The translations under genes and the position numbers were made by a program. From Flagellimonas sp. CMM7 (GTDB lineage Bacteria; Bacteroidota; Bacteroidia; Flavobacteriales; Flavobacteriaceae): a stretch of DNA of 64,000 bases. Positions within the stretch are counted from its first letter, which is position 1; every line of letters starts with the position of its first letter. The stretch spans positions 918,001 to 982,000 of the forward strand of contig NZ_CP090003.1 in assembly GCF_021390195.1 (NCBI RefSeq). The letters run 5' to 3'. Under the pieces are notes generated by a model. It did no database searches and was not told the DNA's origin. It saw nothing but the letters and a program-made list of their open reading frames with translations. Positions 1 through 40,825 of this stretch are shown here, in pieces.

Positions 1-941
1 TGTAAAACCGCTACGTTCTTTTGTTTTTTAAGTGTTCCTATACCTCCAGAAACTTTCATTCGCTTCCCAAGAATATCAATAATTTGATTGTCAATGACAT
101 CAATCTGTGCTCTTAAATTGCTCAGTTTGCTGTTATACTCAGCTTCTTGATCTGTCTCTTTTCTAATACGAAGATCACCCATAATCTGTACCAATCGCTC
201 AGGGGTTACTTGTTGGGCGGCGTCACTCCATGCATTATCAGGATCATGGTGAGTTTCAATCATTAATCCATCAAAATTTAAGTCTAAAGCTGTTTGCGAT
301 ACATCAAAAATCATGTCACGCTTTCCTGTAATATGGCTTGGATCATTGATTATAGGCAAATCTGGAAACTTTGATTGTAACTCAATTGCCATCTGCCATT
401 CTGGAATATTTCTGTATTTGGTCTTCTCATATGTGGAAAAACCTCTATGGATAACCCCTAAATTTTTAATGTCAGCTGAATACAAGCGTTCAACAGCCCC
501 CAACCACAAAGACAAGTCTGGGTTTACCGGATTCTTTATCAAAACAATTTTATCCGTTCCTTCCAAAGCATCAGCAATCTCCTGAACAATAAAAGGACTC
601 ACCGTTGAACGAGCACCAATCCATAACAAATCTACATCGTGCTCCAAGGCAAGGTCTACATGGGCCCTATTTGCGACTTCTGTAGCTGTTTTTAGTCCTG
701 TTTCTTCTTTTACTTTCTGCAACCACTTTAATCCAATGGCGCCAACACCTTCAAAATTACCTGGACGTGTTCTTGGCTTCCAAATACCTGCGCGGTAGTA
801 ATTAACGTCAGTATCTTTTAAATCGTGAGCTATTTTTAATACTTGGTCTTCTGTCTCGGCACTGCAGGGGCCTGCTATAACCAATGGATGTGGTAAATCC
901 ATATCATCCAACCATGTTCTCATTTCCTTCTTGTTTTCCAT
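1..941 (-). CDS. bifunctional DAHP synthase / chorismate mutase (3' end outside window)
   Basis: Catalyses the first step of the shikimate pathway (PEP + erythrose-4-phosphate to DAHP); the C-terminal AroQ-type domain converts chorismate to prephenate. The first 313 codons are in the window, and the reading frame is open at the left edge. Translating the minus strand gives MENKKEMRTW at the start, then the AGPCSAET motif typical of KDO8PS-like DAHP synthases, and near the window edge a helix (VIDNQIIDILGKRM) typical of a chorismate mutase. The start is the ATG at 941, 8 bp after the tyrA stop, so it is the last gene of the pheA-aminotransferase-tyrA operon. This fusion and gene order are usual in Flavobacteriaceae. 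Confidence 0.9.
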   Translation of the reverse strand, partial: MENKKEMRTWLDDMDLPHPLVIAGPCSAETEDQVLKIAHDLKDTDVNYYRAGIWKPRTRPGNFEGVGAIGLKWLQKVKEETGLKTATEVANRAHVDLALEHDVDLLWIGARSTVSPFIVQEIADALEGTDKIVLIKNPVNPDLSLWLGAVERLYSADIKNLGVIHRGFSTYEKTKYRNIPEWQMAIELQSKFPDLPIINDPSHITGKRDMIFDVSQTALDLNFDGLMIETHHDPDNAWSDAAQQVTPERLVQIMGDLRIRKETDQEAEYNSKLSNLRAQIDVIDNQIIDILGKRMKVSGGIGTLKKQKNVAVL

Positions 942-949
942 AATGAAAT

Positions 950-1810
950 CTATTTTTTTGTAAGTGGTATTCCTTTTAGTATTTGTTTTATTTTATTGGT
1001 ATTGTTCATTTCTTTATGCACATTCTCAAAATCATTATTCAAAAGCAGCTGTTTGAAGGTTTCCAAGTTTTGGATATACTCCTCCAAAGTCTCTACGACA
1101 TTTTCCTTGTTTTGCTCAAAAATTGGCGTCCACATATCCGGTGAGCTTTTTGCCAAACGTACAGTACTTTCAAATCCACTCCCTGCCATGTCAAAAATAT
1201 CACGCTCATTTTTTTCTTTTTCAATTACTGTCTTTCCCAACATAAATGAACTTATATGTGATAAATGCGATACATAGGCTATATGTTTGTCATGCGCTTC
1301 TGGGTTCATATAACGAATACGCATTTTTAATTTCTGAAAAATTTCCAATGCTTTTTCTTGAAGCTTGAAAGCTGTCTTTTCCACTTCACATATAATGTTG
1401 GTTTTGCCTTCGTATAAGCCATTAATTGCTGCTGATGGACCAGAAAACTCTGTTCCAGCAATAGGATGGCAAGCCATAAAATTCCTTCTCTTTGGATGAT
1501 TAGATATGGATTTACAAATTAACTTTTTGGTAGATCCAGCATCAATTACAACAGTTTCATCACCCACTGCATCCAATATTTTAGGCAACTCCAACACAAG
1601 GGCATTTACGGGAATACTGATCAATACTAGATCTGTAGAGGCTAGAGATTCATAATTACCCTGTTCCTGAATGATTCCAAGTTCCAAGGCTTGCTCTACA
1701 TGAGATTCATTTGTATCAATTCCTAAAATGTTAGCTTCAGGGTAGAGTAGTTTAACATCTTTAGCAAAAGAACCTCCTATCAATCCAATACCTACAATGA
1801 CCACATTCAT
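950..1810 (-). CDS. tyrA: prephenate dehydrogenase
   Basis: Oxidative decarboxylation of prephenate to 4-hydroxyphenylpyruvate, the tyrosine branch. It is 286 aa with an N-terminal Rossmann fold whose GxGxxG is visible at residues 7-12 (GIGLIG), followed by the helical dimerisation region of the family; the conserved CHPIAGTE and HD/SHLSH stretches are also present. It has no fused chorismate mutase; that activity sits on the next gene. It begins 3 bp after the aminotransferase stop and ends 8 bp before the DAHP synthase start, so it is inside the phe/tyr operon and under the attenuator at 3787-3915. Confidence 0.92.
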   Translation of the reverse strand: MNVVIVGIGLIGGSFAKDVKLLYPEANILGIDTNESHVEQALELGIIQEQGNYESLASTDLVLISIPVNALVLELPKILDAVGDETVVIDAGSTKKLICKSISNHPKRRNFMACHPIAGTEFSGPSAAINGLYEGKTNIICEVEKTAFKLQEKALEIFQKLKMRIRYMNPEAHDKHIAYVSHLSHISSFMLGKTVIEKEKNERDIFDMAGSGFESTVRLAKSSPDMWTPIFEQNKENVVETLEEYIQNLETFKQLLLNNDFENVHKEMNNTNKIKQILKGIPLTKK

Positions 1811-1813
1811 ATT

Positions 1814-2956
1814 CTAAAATCTAGCTATAGCTTCCTTAATTTTTTCCTCTTTCACACAAAGTGAAAACCGTATGTATCCCTCACCATTACTCCCAAAAAT
1901 AGTTCCGGGCGCTATGAAAATATTTTTATCATACAATACCTCATCAATAAAAGCTTCAGAGGATTTAGAGTCATTGGGCAACTTAGCCCAAACAAACATA
2001 CCCGCTGTATTGGTATCGTAAGTTGCTCCAAGTTTATCAACTAGTTCAAACATAAGTTTCCTTCGTCTTTCATAAACTTCATCTAAATTCTTGAACCAAC
2101 CTACCCCACTTTGCAATGCTGTTATGGCTCCTTTTTGGATTCCATAAAACATACCTGAGTCCATATTGCTCTTAATTTTTAAAACCGCTGTAATATGTTC
2201 ATGACTACCGAGCACCATTCCCACTCTCCAACCAGCCATATTAAAGGTTTTACTCAAAGAATTTAATTCTAAGGCCACCTCTTTTGAGCCTTCAACCTGT
2301 AAAATACTGGTAGGATCGTCATTCAGAACAAAACTGTAAGGATTGTCATTTACAACCAGTATATTGTTAGCTCTAGCAAATGCAATGAGTTCTTTCATTT
2401 TGGACATATTAATCCTTGCACCAGTGGGCATGTTAGGATAGCTTATCCACATTAATTTCACCTTTGACAGGTTCATTCGCTCCAATTCCCTTATATCTGG
2501 AAGCCAACCATTTTCAGCTGTCAAATCATACATGACAGGTTTTGCCCCCACTAAATTTGTGACGGAAGTATAGGTAGGGTAACCTGGATTTGGTATTAAC
2601 ACTTCATCCCCAACATTCAAAAAGGCCATACTAATGTGCATAATACCCTCTTTAGAGCCCATGAGAGGTAAAAGCTCGGTATTGGGATTCACATGAACTC
2701 CAAAACGTGAAGCGTAAAAATTGGCCATTTCTTCACGAAGTTCTGGAAGGCCCTGATAACTCTGATATTGGTGTGCTTTACTGTCTTCCAAAACATGTTG
2801 TAATGTGGCGACAGTTTCTTTTGATGGAGGTAAATCTGGGCTACCAATTCCCATATTGATTATAGGTCTACCCTCATCAATCAAACTTCTGACCTCCCTT
2901 AATTTTTTAGAGAAATAGTATTCTTGAACACTATGTAGTCTGTCTGCAGTTATCAT
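1814..2956 (-). CDS. PLP-dependent class I/II aminotransferase of the phe/tyr operon
   Basis: Fold-type I aminotransferase, 380 aa, with the PLP lysine in SLSK (K236), the substrate-binding NPGYPTY loop near residue 133 and a C-terminal FSLCV block holding the carboxylate-binding Arg. Its position between pheA and tyrA suggests that it transaminates phenylpyruvate and hydroxyphenylpyruvate (or prephenate) to give Phe and Tyr; the substrate itself is inferred from context. Its ATG overlaps the end of pheA by 4 bp, indicating translational coupling. Confidence 0.88.
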   Translation of the reverse strand: MITADRLHSVQEYYFSKKLREVRSLIDEGRPIINMGIGSPDLPPSKETVATLQHVLEDSKAHQYQSYQGLPELREEMANFYASRFGVHVNPNTELLPLMGSKEGIMHISMAFLNVGDEVLIPNPGYPTYTSVTNLVGAKPVMYDLTAENGWLPDIRELERMNLSKVKLMWISYPNMPTGARINMSKMKELIAFARANNILVVNDNPYSFVLNDDPTSILQVEGSKEVALELNSLSKTFNMAGWRVGMVLGSHEHITAVLKIKSNMDSGMFYGIQKGAITALQSGVGWFKNLDEVYERRRKLMFELVDKLGATYDTNTAGMFVWAKLPNDSKSSEAFIDEVLYDKNIFIAPGTIFGSNGEGYIRFSLCVKEEKIKEAIARF

Positions 2957-3783
2957 GATATCAATGCATTTTTGTATTCGCCCAAAACCCTAAAATCTTC
3001 AGACATAATTTCCAGTAATGATTTCGCTTTTGTGAATTGGTTGTATGCATCAAACGTAACATCCACGAAAAAGGCATATTTCCAGGGGGTTTCAATCACG
3101 GGGAGAGACTGGATTTTTGTCAAATTCAAATTACAATCACTCATAACATTCAATACTGTTGCCAAACTTCCCCGTTTATGGTCCGTAATAAATCTCAAAG
3201 AGGCCTTGTTGATTTCTTCGCGTGGCAAAACTTTATTCTGTTTTTTTAGTATGATAAAACGTGTGGCGTTATTTTTAATAGTCTGAATCTCAGAGGCAAT
3301 AATATCCAAATTATATAATTCTGCAGCAACTTTAGGTGCAATGGCAGCAATATTAGTTAATTGACCTTCTTTGATACGTTTGGCAGTCTCAGCTGTATCT
3401 ACATCTTCAACCAATTTCACCTTTGGGTACTTCTTAAAAAACTCCTTACACTGTAATAAAGCCATTGGGTGTGAGTGTACTTCCTCGATATCTGTAAACG
3501 AACAACCTTTTAAAACCATTAAATTATGATGAATGTTTAAATAATGTTCACCAATAATGTGCATATTATTATGGTACACTAGATTGTAATTGGGAATTAT
3601 AGACCCAGCTATGGAATTCTCTATGGCCATAATTCCTTTATCCGTCGAACCTTTTTGCAAATGCTCTATAATGGCATCAAAAGAAAGACACTCCAACAAA
3701 TCTATATTATCCCCAAAAAAATCCTTTGCCACTTGATGGTGGTTAGATCCCTTAATTCCTTGTATTGCAACTTTTAAACTCAT
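2953..3783 (-). CDS. pheA: prephenate dehydratase
   Basis: Converts prephenate to phenylpyruvate. It is 276 aa: a periplasmic-binding-protein-like catalytic domain with the signature TRF (T174-R175-F176) and ENSIAGS (residues 55-61), then an ACT domain from about 195 (RGSLATVL...), expected to bind Phe for feedback inhibition. There is no N-terminal chorismate mutase. It is the first structural gene of the operon. The ATG at 3783 lies directly against the T-tract of the upstream terminator (3787-3815), so the region that would hold a ribosome site is made of the terminator's U-run. The operon is thus controlled both at the enzyme (ACT) and by attenuation. Confidence 0.92.
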   Translation of the reverse strand: MSLKVAIQGIKGSNHHQVAKDFFGDNIDLLECLSFDAIIEHLQKGSTDKGIMAIENSIAGSIIPNYNLVYHNNMHIIGEHYLNIHHNLMVLKGCSFTDIEEVHSHPMALLQCKEFFKKYPKVKLVEDVDTAETAKRIKEGQLTNIAAIAPKVAAELYNLDIIASEIQTIKNNATRFIILKKQNKVLPREEINKASLRFITDHKRGSLATVLNVMSDCNLNLTKIQSLPVIETPWKYAFFVDVTFDAYNQFTKAKSLLEIMSEDFRVLGEYKNALIS

Positions 3784-3786
3784 TGT

Positions 3787-3815
3787 AAAAAAAAAGTCCC
3801 GATTTGCATCGGGAC
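3787..3815 (-). terminator. attenuator terminator of the phe/tyr operon
   Basis: Minus-strand RNA forms a perfect 8-bp stem GTCCCGAT / ATCGGGAC with a 4-base loop (arms 3808-3815 and 3796-3803), followed by nine U (3787-3795), ending 4 bases before the pheA ATG. The CGGGAC of the 3' arm recurs in the leader-peptide reading frame (3852-3857), so that copy can pair with the 5' arm instead: an antiterminator. Confidence 0.85.
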
Positions 3816-3843
3816 CTTGTGTGTTTTTATACTTAGCGTATAT

Positions 3844-3915
3844 TTAGAACAGTCCCGTACCTCTTTTAAAAAAGAAGTAGAAATAAAAACCGTTCCAGAA
3901 ATACGTCTTTGTCAT
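3844..3915 (-). CDS. phe/tyr operon leader peptide (attenuation peptide)
   Basis: A 23-codon reading frame, ATG at 3915 and TAA at 3844-3846, upstream of the terminator. It begins MTKTYFWNGF and continues YFYFFFKRGTGLF: seven Phe, three Tyr and one Trp, 11 aromatic residues of 23, with a run of six aromatic codons (10-12, 13, 14-16 without interruption apart from alternation of F and Y). This is the pattern of classical PheL-type leaders. Ribosomes stalled at codons 10-16 for lack of charged tRNA-Phe/Tyr would leave codons 20-22 (holding CGGGAC) free to pair with the 5' arm of the terminator; a ribosome at the stop codon would cover them and allow termination. Confidence 0.85.
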   Translation of the reverse strand: MTKTYFWNGFYFYFFFKRGTGLF

Positions 3916-3933
3916 TTTGTTGTAATTCTTGGG

Positions 3934-3963
3934 CTAAGATAGGTATTCAATTGAAAAACAAAA
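3934..3963 (-). promoter_or_regulatory. probable promoter of the phe/tyr operon
   Basis: Minus strand reads TTTTG (3959-3963), 17 bp, then TATCTTAG (3934-3941), one mismatch from the Bacteroidota -7 consensus TAnnTTTG. It would start transcription about 10-12 nt before the leader-peptide ATG. Confidence 0.5.
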
Positions 3964-4148
3964 GCTAAATCTTAAATTTTTTCGATTTTTAGCAAAATTC
4001 CCATATTTGTTACATATAGTTCTGGAGAAATTTCGTTTTTCTGAGGATTCAAAATATGTTGTTGTACCAACAATCCCATAAAGGTTTGACAAACCACATG
4101 ATCAAAGTTACAAACGACCTACTTAGTATGCATTGAGAATTCTAAAAC

Positions 4149-4171
4149 CGTATTTTTGAGTTCAAAATACG
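4149..4171 (+). promoter_or_regulatory. gldA promoter with overlapping inverted repeat
   Basis: TATTTTTG at 4151-4158 matches the -7 consensus. It lies inside a perfect inverted repeat, CGTATTTT at 4149-4156 and AAAATACG at 4164-4171, with a 7-base spacer, 5 bp before the ATG. The repeat may be an operator or a short 5' hairpin; the sequence does not decide which. Confidence 0.45.
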
Positions 4172-4176
4172 TTTGA

Positions 4177-5070
4177 ATGTCCATTACAGTAAACAACATC
4201 ACCAAGACTTTTGGAAAGCAAAAAGCACTAAATAATGTTTCCTTTTCAATTGATAAGGGAGAAATCGTTGGTTTTTTAGGGCCAAATGGTGCTGGAAAAT
4301 CAACCATGATGAGGGTTTTGACCACTTATTATAAAGCTAATTCCGGTGATGCAGAAGTAAATGGATTTGATGTTTTAAAATCTGAGCGAGAGGTTCAAAA
4401 AAGTATTGGCTACTTACCAGAGCACAATCCACTTTACCTAGAAATGTTTGTAAAGGAATACTTGGCTTTTAACGCCGATGTATATAATGTTTCCAAAGAA
4501 CGTATTGCCGAAGTAATTGATCAAACTGGTCTTGAGCCCGAAGCCCACAAGAAAATAGGTCAGTTATCTAAAGGGTACCGTCAACGTGTTGGCTTGGCAG
4601 CAGCTTTATTGCATGATCCTGATGTGCTGATCTTGGATGAGCCCACTACTGGACTTGACCCCAATCAATTGGTTGAAATACGAAAACTAATAAGAGAAAT
4701 TGGCAAGGAAAAGACCATACTGCTTTCTACCCATATTATGAAGGAAGTTGAAGCTGTTTGTGATCGTGTCATCATTATTAATAAAGGAGAAGTGGTGGCA
4801 GATAAAAAAATGGAAGATCTTAGAGAGGCAAAAGAGCAAATAATAGAAGTGGAGTTCGATTATAGAGTTGAAGAAATATTATTGAATAAATTGCCCAACG
4901 TATCCCATGTTAAGAACACTGGAGGCTTTATCTACGAAATCACCTTCGCCACCTCAAAAGATATGAGACCAGCTGTTTTTGATTTTGCTCATGACAACCA
5001 ACTAAAAACACTACAGCTGAGTAGAAAAAACAAAACCCTCGAGAGTTTGTTTACTGAGTTGACCATTTAA
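4177..5070 (+). CDS. gldA: gliding-motility ABC transporter ATP-binding protein GldA
   Basis: Cytoplasmic ABC ATPase, 297 aa, energising the GldAFG transporter needed for gliding in Flavobacterium. Walker A is GPNGAGKST (35-43), the signature is LSKGYRQR, Walker B is VLILDEPT, and the switch His is in LSTHIM. The tail of about 75 residues after the core is usual for GldA. It is alone here: gldF and gldG, which are normally elsewhere in these genomes, are not in the window. It converges on the receptor gene at 5079 with only 8 bp between stops and no visible terminator. Confidence 0.88.
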   Translation: MSITVNNITKTFGKQKALNNVSFSIDKGEIVGFLGPNGAGKSTMMRVLTTYYKANSGDAEVNGFDVLKSEREVQKSIGYLPEHNPLYLEMFVKEYLAFNADVYNVSKERIAEVIDQTGLEPEAHKKIGQLSKGYRQRVGLAAALLHDPDVLILDEPTTGLDPNQLVEIRKLIREIGKEKTILLSTHIMKEVEAVCDRVIIINKGEVVADKKMEDLREAKEQIIEVEFDYRVEEILLNKLPNVSHVKNTGGFIYEITFATSKDMRPAVFDFAHDNQLKTLQLSRKNKTLESLFTELTI

Positions 5071-22398: not shown

Positions 22399-22476
22399 AA
22401 CACAATTACCCTTTATTAAGAGTTATACTATTGTATCAAGAAAAGTGTAGGAAATACAGTGAAAAGTATTCGTTAC

Positions 22477-22589
22477 GTTATCCTTCCTAAAACCAAGAAT
22501 TTGATTTAAGGTAGAATTTAGCACCTTCTTTAAGAGTAAAGGGTTGCTAAGGTTTCATAGGGTCTAATCCCTCCGCCTTTCTTGATAAC
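22477..22589 (-). ncRNA. SAM-I (S-box) riboswitch of the metH-metF operon
   Basis: Minus strand: P1 5' strand GTTATC (22584-22589) and 3' strand GATAAC (22477-22482); core AAGAAAGGCGGAGGGATTA, GACCCTATGAAACCTTAGC, AACCC, then GGTGCTAAATTCTACC, the S-box consensus. Its downstream 78 nt before the metH ATG hold no clear U-run hairpin, so control may be at translation or through an element I cannot see. The region 22399-22476 has nothing else I can assign. Confidence 0.92.
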
Positions 22590-22594
22590 AATCT

Positions 22595-36502: not shown

Positions 36503-36509
36503 GTTTTTC

Positions 36510-36613
36510 GTTATCTATTCCACATCTGTGGATAGAATTTAGCACCTTCTTTATATGGAACAAAGGGTTGCTAAGGCTTCATAGGGTCTAATCCCTCCAC
36601 CTTTCTTGATAAC
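36510..36613 (-). ncRNA. SAM-I (S-box) riboswitch of the metY-metX/thrA operon
   Basis: Minus strand: P1 GTTATC (36608-36613) with GATAAC (36510-36515); core AAGAAAGGTGGAGGGATTA, GACCCTATGAAGCCTTAGC, AACCC, GGTGCTAAATTC. Nearly identical core to the one at 22477-22589 with a different variable stem. The remaining leader 36383-36484 holds nothing else I can name. Confidence 0.92.
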
Positions 36614-36642
36614 TATTCAATACGTGTTTGAACTTATGAGGA

Positions 36643-40702: not shown

Positions 40703-40801
40703 ATATATAAAATTTGTTGGAGGAGATTTGACGGCAAAGCCCAAAGAAGTTTACACCACTTTTTAGCATTTTTTATGGAGGTTGCAATCGGTCAAATCTT
40801 T

Positions 40802-40825
40802 CCTCAATAATTGAGGCCAAAAATA
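40802..40825 (-). promoter_or_regulatory. metK promoter with palindrome at the start site
   Basis: Minus-strand -7 TATTTTTG (40818-40825). The predicted start is in a perfect palindrome CCTCAAT - A - ATTGAGG (40802-40816). About 100 nt of untranslated leader follow. The palindrome may be an operator. Confidence 0.4.

Follow-up and report, generated by a model that had tools for sequence, protein, structure and literature searches.

Between the divergent genes gldA and pheA of Flagellimonas sp. CMM7, the minus strand carries a short frame rich in phenylalanine and tyrosine codons, an intrinsic terminator and then the pheA start codon; the question raised by this locus is whether these parts form a switch that ties transcription of the genes downstream to the supply of aromatic amino acids. 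The leader very probably controls the pheA-aminotransferase-tyrA-DAHP synthase/chorismate mutase operon by ribosome-mediated transcription attenuation, a mechanism proposed in a sequence-only reading of this DNA and one for which conservation and covariation, likewise read from sequence, now argue. Positions are those of the window, the whole 64,000-nucleotide stretch of DNA that was analysed.

The pheA operon and its leader frame

The gene divergent from pheA, gldA (4177..5070; TIGR03522 above cut-off), runs in the opposite direction to the leader. The first gene that the leader would regulate is pheA (2953..3783, minus strand; start codon ATG, 3783..3781), which encodes a 276 aa prephenate dehydratase matching NCBIfam NF008865 (1.8e-58, under the equivalog cut-off); the protein is 92% identical to PheA of F. 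aquimarina, and its nearest named relatives belong to Flagellimonas/Allomuricauda. The end of pheA is overlapped by a gene for a class I/II aminotransferase (1814..2956, minus strand; Pfam PF00155), the best NCBIfam model of which is the LL-diaminopimelate aminotransferase subfamily, under cut-off; the protein is presumed to act in phenylalanine and tyrosine transamination. It is followed by tyrA, for prephenate dehydrogenase (950..1810, minus strand; NCBIfam NF006307 above cut-off), and by a gene (1..941, minus strand) that encodes DAHP synthase and the beginning of a C-terminal chorismate mutase domain before it runs off the window. The frame of this last gene, 3..941, is open at the window edge and matches Pfam PF00793 (7.7e-38) and PF01817 (2.1e-8), and NCBIfam DAHP synthase models match it under cut-off. 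Elsewhere in the 64 kb, two SAM (S box) riboswitches and one SAM-II riboswitch score above their Rfam gathering scores (36508-36615, 22475-22591 and 40753-40811, all on the minus strand).

The leader frame, MTKTYFWNGFYFYFFFKRGTGLF (3844..3915, minus strand), has 23 codons and a TAA stop, and is defined by frame reading and by conservation. It lies at 3915..3844 as originally described, with 11 of the 23 codons aromatic (Y5, F6, W7, F10, Y11, F12, Y13, F14, F15, F16 and F23); codons 10-16, FYFYFFF (3868..3888, minus strand), are considered to be the control codons, and the Trp codon 7 (3895..3897, minus strand) is a possible third control codon, judging from Trp counts in relatives. Among 554 tiles of the window, five reach five aromatics in eight codons and two reach six, both of the latter being the leader site. 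The motif CGGGAC in codons 20-22 (3857..3852) has the same letters as the 3′ arm of the terminator (3801..3796), the identity from which the sequence-only reading had derived an antiterminator; the 5′ arm, GTCCCG, occupies 3815..3810.

A promoter upstream of the leader frame is plausible from its sequence and is treated here as putative. The candidate -7 box, TATCTTAG (3934..3941, minus strand), has the form TAnnTTnG, and 17 nt before it lies a -33-like TTG (3959..3961, minus strand), an element that is weak when taken alone and, by eye, absent from some relatives. In the promoter passages of PMC9723704 the flavobacterial box is given as TAnnTTTG, from which TATCTTAG is one mismatch removed. 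None of the 23 same-genus leaders has the strict box, which occurs in 24 of 143 other genera where 9.8 would be expected. If the pattern is loosened to TAnnTTnG, at most 60 nt from the leader ATG, the counts are 20 of 23 (3.0 expected) and 137 of 143 (19.1 expected). A scan of the minus strand at the leader for sigma-70 promoters gave no match.

Alternative pairings of the leader RNA

The RNA from 3930 to 3787 folds at -40.6 kcal/mol (z = -6.2; none of 200 shuffles was equally good), and the leader without its terminator has a fold z of -4.3. The whole-leader fold consists of a 12-pair 1:2 helix, an inner 9-pair hairpin formed by the TACTTCTTTT and AAAAGAGGTA stretches, and the 3:4 terminator. 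Region 1 (3886..3897, minus strand; codons 7-10) pairs in this minimum-free-energy fold with 3856..3845, and the resulting 1:2 hairpin is predicted for the ribosome-free leader; across 145 leaders, region 2 pairs upstream more than it does with shuffled upstream sequence in 129. The sequence-only reading had named neither this hairpin nor the footprint-like spacing described below. Codons 17-19 (KRG, 3867-3859), which follow the F/Y run, pair with Tyr/Phe codons in the 9-pair hairpin; this modelled pairing is a possible RNA reason for the conservation of residues outside the control codons.

Region 2, CGGGACTGTTCTA (3845..3857, minus strand), also has a second partner, its first 7 nt pairing with region 3 as the antiterminator. 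When the fragment 3886..3806 is folded, which leaves out the codons before codon 10 and the 3′ arm of the terminator, region 2 (3857..3851) pairs with region 3 (3816..3810) through seven pairs; a small TATAC/GTATA hairpin (3828..3842, minus strand) is predicted in the antiterminator loop between the two regions, and short repeats resembling it are seen by eye in some relatives. Region 3, the terminator 5′ arm AAGGTCCCGAT (3808..3818, minus strand), is common to antiterminator and terminator, and region 4 is the 3′ arm, ATCGGGACTTT (3793..3803, minus strand). Regions 2 and 3 are assigned from the fold and from covariation, with the consensus fold added for region 2 and the terminator scan for region 3; region 4 is assigned from the scan and from 3:4 covariation. 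The scan places the terminator stem at 3818..3793 with 11 pairs, and a run of nine T (3787..3795, minus strand) completes the intrinsic terminator. Over 3700..4180 two terminator-like sites were found, the second being the same hairpin on the plus strand; shuffles gave a mean of 0.2.

The two pairings were compared by calculation in 145 leaders. If a ribosome occupies the last control codon before region 4 has been transcribed, the probability of 2:3 has a median of 0.99; in the complete RNA at equilibrium the median is 0.01 and 3:4 is favoured. Since the complete RNA at equilibrium favours 3:4, the folding model holds that the choice of pairing must be made kinetically, during the passage of RNA polymerase; kinetic switching of this kind is usual among attenuators.

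Conservation of the frame and terminator

Within the genus the leader precedes pheA at all 23 loci, own included; another genome of the genus, 75% complete, gave no pheA match. The family set held one genome per genus, and pheA was found in 178 of its 199 genomes, own included. Upstream DNA was examined for 148 of the other 177 genera, among the matches listed, so that close relatives are over-represented; one locus (G086) was cut by a contig end. An aromatic-rich frame ending near a terminator was found by script in 144 of these 148, and the count of leaders with terminator rises to 145 with L054, whose leader lies beyond the first 400 nt searched; L123 and L142 have no leader within 400 nt upstream of pheA, and the upstream DNA of L177 is cut by a contig end. 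Conservation of the aromatic codons among relatives, on which the sequence-only reading had staked its proposal, is thus borne out in 145 of 148 other genera examined, a count that, like the pairing counts below, is inflated by shared ancestry.

The search of the order returned eight further loci of the same family (L178, L179, L180, L183, L185, L186, L191 and L197, of which L178 repeats L061), all with a leader. Outside the family, the script found the leader in 24 of 42 pheA loci, spanning 15 other families: 4 of 6 and 7 of 13 order-level loci and 13 of 23 class-level loci, the class being presumably Bacteroidia from the taxonomy of the Flavobacteriaceae, after removal of three loci that repeat others (L181, L182 and L184). 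Five order-level loci without a leader are from 0.6-Mb genomes of one family, and the class-level loci L211, L220 and L221 are leader-like by eye, their stems having been missed by the script. As pheA was detected in 46 of 99 order genomes and 26 of 99 class genomes, the spread is stated for pheA-bearing loci only; the set contains weak, distant PheA matches, such as L205 and L215. Pooling the 23 leaders of the genus (own among them), the 144 of other genera, the 8 further loci of the family and the 24 from outside it gives the 199 leaders used below.

Likely position of the ribosome relative to region 2

Spacing was measured from the first base of the last control codon to the first base of region 2. 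It is 10-17 nt in 190 of the 199 leaders (21.3% for shuffled tails) and 12-15 nt in 156 (10.5%), with a standard deviation of 2.0 nt against 12.9 nt for shuffled tails. A ribosome with a codon in its A site covers roughly 12 nt beyond that codon; because the spacing matches this footprint, region 2 would mostly start at the likely edge of a stalled ribosome. The distance is 12 nt or more in all 23 same-genus leaders, in 133 of 144 other-genus leaders and in 13 of 24 outside the family, and it is no less than 10 nt in any of the last group.

A ribosome at the leader stop codon was modelled as spanning -18 to +12. The whole of region 2 falls within that span in 22 of 23 same-genus leaders and in 138 of 144 from other genera, and in the others of both groups it is partly covered; whole coverage and overlap are found in 2 and 7 of the 8 further family loci, and in 14 and 21 of the 24 leaders outside the family. 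In three class-level leaders (L217, L218 and L223) some 28-31 nt separate region 2 from the leader stop downstream of it, which puts it beyond the reach of a stop-codon ribosome; in these lineages the termination step may work differently, with region 2 occupied in some other way. The spacings fit, indirectly, a ribosome whose position would set which pairing forms.

Coordinated changes in the competing helices

Alignment A1, made with MAFFT without structural guidance, contains 73 leaders (own and every second of the 144 other-genus leaders). RNAalifold returns five pairs from it, every one in helix 2:3, and the consensus energy is weak at -2.53 kcal/mol; the terminator helix and the 1:2 hairpin are both absent from this consensus of 73 leaders. 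The strongest 2:3 column pair is A-U in 36 of the 73 and G-C in 32. Helix 2:3 exceeds its shuffles in paired cells (89.0% vs 77.0%), in cells changed on both sides (65 vs 25.0) and in covariation score (0.565 vs 0.345, with slid versions reaching at most 0.179), none of 500 shuffles being as high by any of these measures; the number of pairs with both-side change (5 vs 4.3, 207 of 500 as high) and of further pair types (9 vs 9.6, 495 of 500 as high) are not above shuffles. For helix 3:4 the paired cells are 92.7% vs 87.7% and the score is 0.317 vs 0.230, again with 0 of 500 shuffles as high.

The 199 leaders contain 97 different region 2/region 3 sequence pairs, and in 189 of the leaders the native arms pair better than 40 arms sampled from the pool do on average. 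Against tail shuffles, 2:3 reaches p <= 0.05 at 119 of 144 other-genus loci and is above this value at 25. In several other families the arms differ from those of the Flagellimonas leader, yet match their own region 2; the pairing first proposed for CGGGAC is therefore kept among relatives with coordinated changes. Another ungapped helix, in which the opening codons of the leader would pair with the stretch just beyond region 2 (ACATAT/GTATGT type), reaches p <= 0.05 in 44 of 144 leaders from other genera, in 10 of the 23 from the genus and in 9 of the other 32; as these sequences are related, it is not claimed.

Amino acids probably sensed and other leaders of the genome

Codons for both Phe and Tyr are present in all 199 leaders; as first supposed, a peptide mixing these with one Trp codon fits an operon of Phe/Tyr genes, and the control codons agree with the operon products. 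A Trp codon occurs in 21% of shuffles. Of the real leaders, 22 of the 23 from the genus have one, as do 90 of the 144 from other genera and 11 of the 32 that remain; it usually precedes the last control codon by 5 or by 9-10 codons. Among the 24 leaders from other families the figure is 6, near the shuffle rate. Scarcity of Trp could also switch the operon on, because a ribosome at W7 would cover region 1 and free region 2; Trp sensing would suit the DAHP synthase of the operon, an enzyme that feeds all three aromatics.

Elsewhere in the same genome, hisG (near 4116232, L228) is preceded by a His-codon leader, MRNKNTHHHHFYTCTQAR, and a strong terminator. A His-run leader precedes hisG at 17 of 19 loci, own included, the two others (L233 and L240) having none within 450 nt; region 2 was scored at these loci against arm plus loop, and its best candidate begins 16 nt beyond the final His codon of the run in 15 of the 17. 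The best trpE-like gene (near 688739, L253) is preceded by a Trp-codon leader, MNLRTVNTWWWMNLRRIS, and a terminator. The trpE set consisted of the 17 full-length matches among 24 loci, none above the trpE family cut-off; 14 of these 17, own included, have a Trp-run leader, and L244, L246 and L248 have none within 450 nt. Only the codons and the terminator are claimed for the trpE leaders, since their best region 2 is short (score 10-14) and the spacing differs (23 nt in 11 of 14). With His, Trp and Phe/Tyr leaders in one genome, leaders of such a kind, with different codons in an equivalent position, stand before at least three amino-acid operons. The ilvD gene of this genome showed no clear leader in a scan of 7 of 22 ilvD loci; the first gene of the ilv operon may be one other than ilvD. 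At L277, from another family of the order, an Ile/Leu/Val-rich leader, MRVNNVILSIIILLCQL, stands before a terminator upstream of ilvD.

Proposed mechanism

The putative upstream promoter would yield the leader RNA. When charged tRNA-Phe and tRNA-Tyr are plentiful, the ribosome would reach the stop codon and hide region 2; the 3:4 terminator would then form, and transcription would end before pheA. Under shortage of Phe or Tyr, and perhaps of Trp, a ribosome would stall at codons 7-16 and leave region 2 exposed; once region 3 is made it would be captured by region 2, so that no terminator forms and the operon is transcribed. If the leader is not translated, the predicted 1:2 hairpin would sequester region 2 and the terminator would form.

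Alternative explanations

The same locus could be read as a nascent-peptide arrest, in which the peptide stalls in the exit tunnel upon binding of a free aromatic amino acid; TnaC is an arrest peptide of this sort, responding to tryptophan. Almost the whole peptide is conserved within the genus, including its non-aromatic residues, which would suit such a reading; between genera, however, the peptide varies at its two ends and F, Y and W interchange within the run, while some of the conserved non-aromatic codons overlap region 1, region 2 and the intervening hairpin, where the constraint could be on the RNA. The presence of His and Trp leaders in the same genome also speaks against arrest, which is considered very unlikely.

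Slightly less probable still is that the leader RNA binds a ligand or protein, as a riboswitch, a T-box or the target of an RNA-binding protein, with the frame incidental. This has some appeal in that structured 5′ elements without an Rfam match are proposed as original in the relevant text on F. psychrophilum (PMC9723704). Against it, no riboswitch or T-box scores above its gathering score at the leader; T-box in particular has no match at gathering score in the window, and none of the 19 matches that 3740..4000 gives up to E 10 is a T-box. The best sub-threshold Rfam model at the leader is itself Phe_leader (RF01859; 27.7 bits, E 0.0079 over 261 bases, below the gathering threshold of 55). 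It is the codons and their distance to region 2 that stay constant, and only 3 of 172 columns of the leader alignment are invariant.

Translation control, with the hairpin chiefly hiding the pheA start codon instead of terminating transcription, is more improbable again. The terminator had been described as lying directly against the pheA start; this is true here, where the nine-T run ends 3 nt upstream of the ATG, and in the genus the median distance from stem end to pheA match is 9 nt. In the 144 other-genus leaders, however, the gap from stem to pheA match spans 6-248 nt with a median of 27; the close placement is therefore a local trait, and the conserved mechanism is not one of covering the pheA start. 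The T run demanded by the script in each leader likewise points to termination.

An ordinary terminator of an upstream gene beside a chance aromatic frame in T-rich DNA is the least probable reading and close to negligible: TTT, TTC and TAT codons are cheap by composition in this AT-rich region, but gldA runs the opposite way, so that no other nearby gene is transcribed toward the terminator, the frame with terminator is found in 144 of 148 real loci against 1 of 444 dinucleotide shuffles (at least five aromatics in eight codons, the frame ending near a terminator; 7 of 444 for at least four), and chance would leave the 2:3 covariation without a reason.

Implications for transcription-translation coupling

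The attenuator may have a wider meaning, which is put forward tentatively, its chance of holding in full falling a little short of even: that one old attenuator, sensing all three aromatics, governs pheA across the family and many families of the class, in hosts without Shine-Dalgarno sequences; that the 12-15 nt spacing is an evolutionary read-out of the ribosome edge; and that this phylum couples transcription tightly to translation. For attenuation to work, the ribosome has to keep up with RNA polymerase, and so the breadth and geometry of the leader constitute comparative evidence for coupling; a limited literature search found no study of transcription-translation coupling in this phylum. 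The leader would offer a simple reporter for testing such coupling in these bacteria. The His, Trp and Phe/Tyr leaders of one genome also provide an annotation rule for amino-acid operons, which is useful as the Phe/Tyr leader passes no Rfam threshold.

Comparison with known attenuators

Among the closest counterparts is pheL-pheA of E. coli, which has a Phe-rich leader peptide, competing pairings and a terminator before pheA; its Rfam model is the one that scored best at this locus. The flavobacterial leader works like Phe_leader and is outside Rfam family RF01859. It differs from pheL-pheA in that Tyr and Trp codons are mixed into the leader, and the operon differs in that it also has tyrA and DAHP synthase. 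Surveys of this class of regulation across bacteria were reportedly made by Lopatovskaya and colleagues in 2010 and by Vitreschak and colleagues in 2004; because the 2010 survey may list some Bacteroidetes, no priority is claimed for the phylum. A literature search that covered few subscription journals found no description of the pairing, the spacing or the spread beyond the family of the pheA leader, and no further work on attenuators in this phylum beyond the papers cited here.

Within the phylum, short ORFs reminiscent of leader peptides are reported in B. thetaiotaomicron, according to the available text of PMC7366714; the available text of PMC8305728 mentions no leader. The nearest precedent is a 2021 study of Flavobacterium psychrophilum, whose accessible sections describe structured 5′ elements upstream of pheA and hisG, give strong clues for leader-peptide attenuation before amino-acid operons, and note the lack of Shine-Dalgarno sequences in flavobacteria, a difference from E. 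coli (PMC9723704). The F. psychrophilum pheA element precedes the same gene in the same bacterial family and is probably the same element as the present leader. The text on pheA in PMC9723704 mentions other genera of the Flavobacteriaceae and is silent on a leader peptide, a pairing scheme and codon content; relative to that text, the covariation, the spacing and the loci in other families are new.

The E. coli trp and his attenuators, as set out in PMC1183508, combine regulatory codons with a 1:2 pause hairpin, a 2:3 antiterminator and a 3:4 terminator. Pausing and synchrony are demonstrated there for the E. coli trp and his systems, whereas the pheA leader is known from sequence. The pheA leader uses control codons other than those of trp and his, and its predicted pairings match the three-way scheme given for the trp attenuator in PMC1183508. 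It is a known kind of switch, partly anticipated in print, to which the present comparison adds breadth and a sharp geometry.
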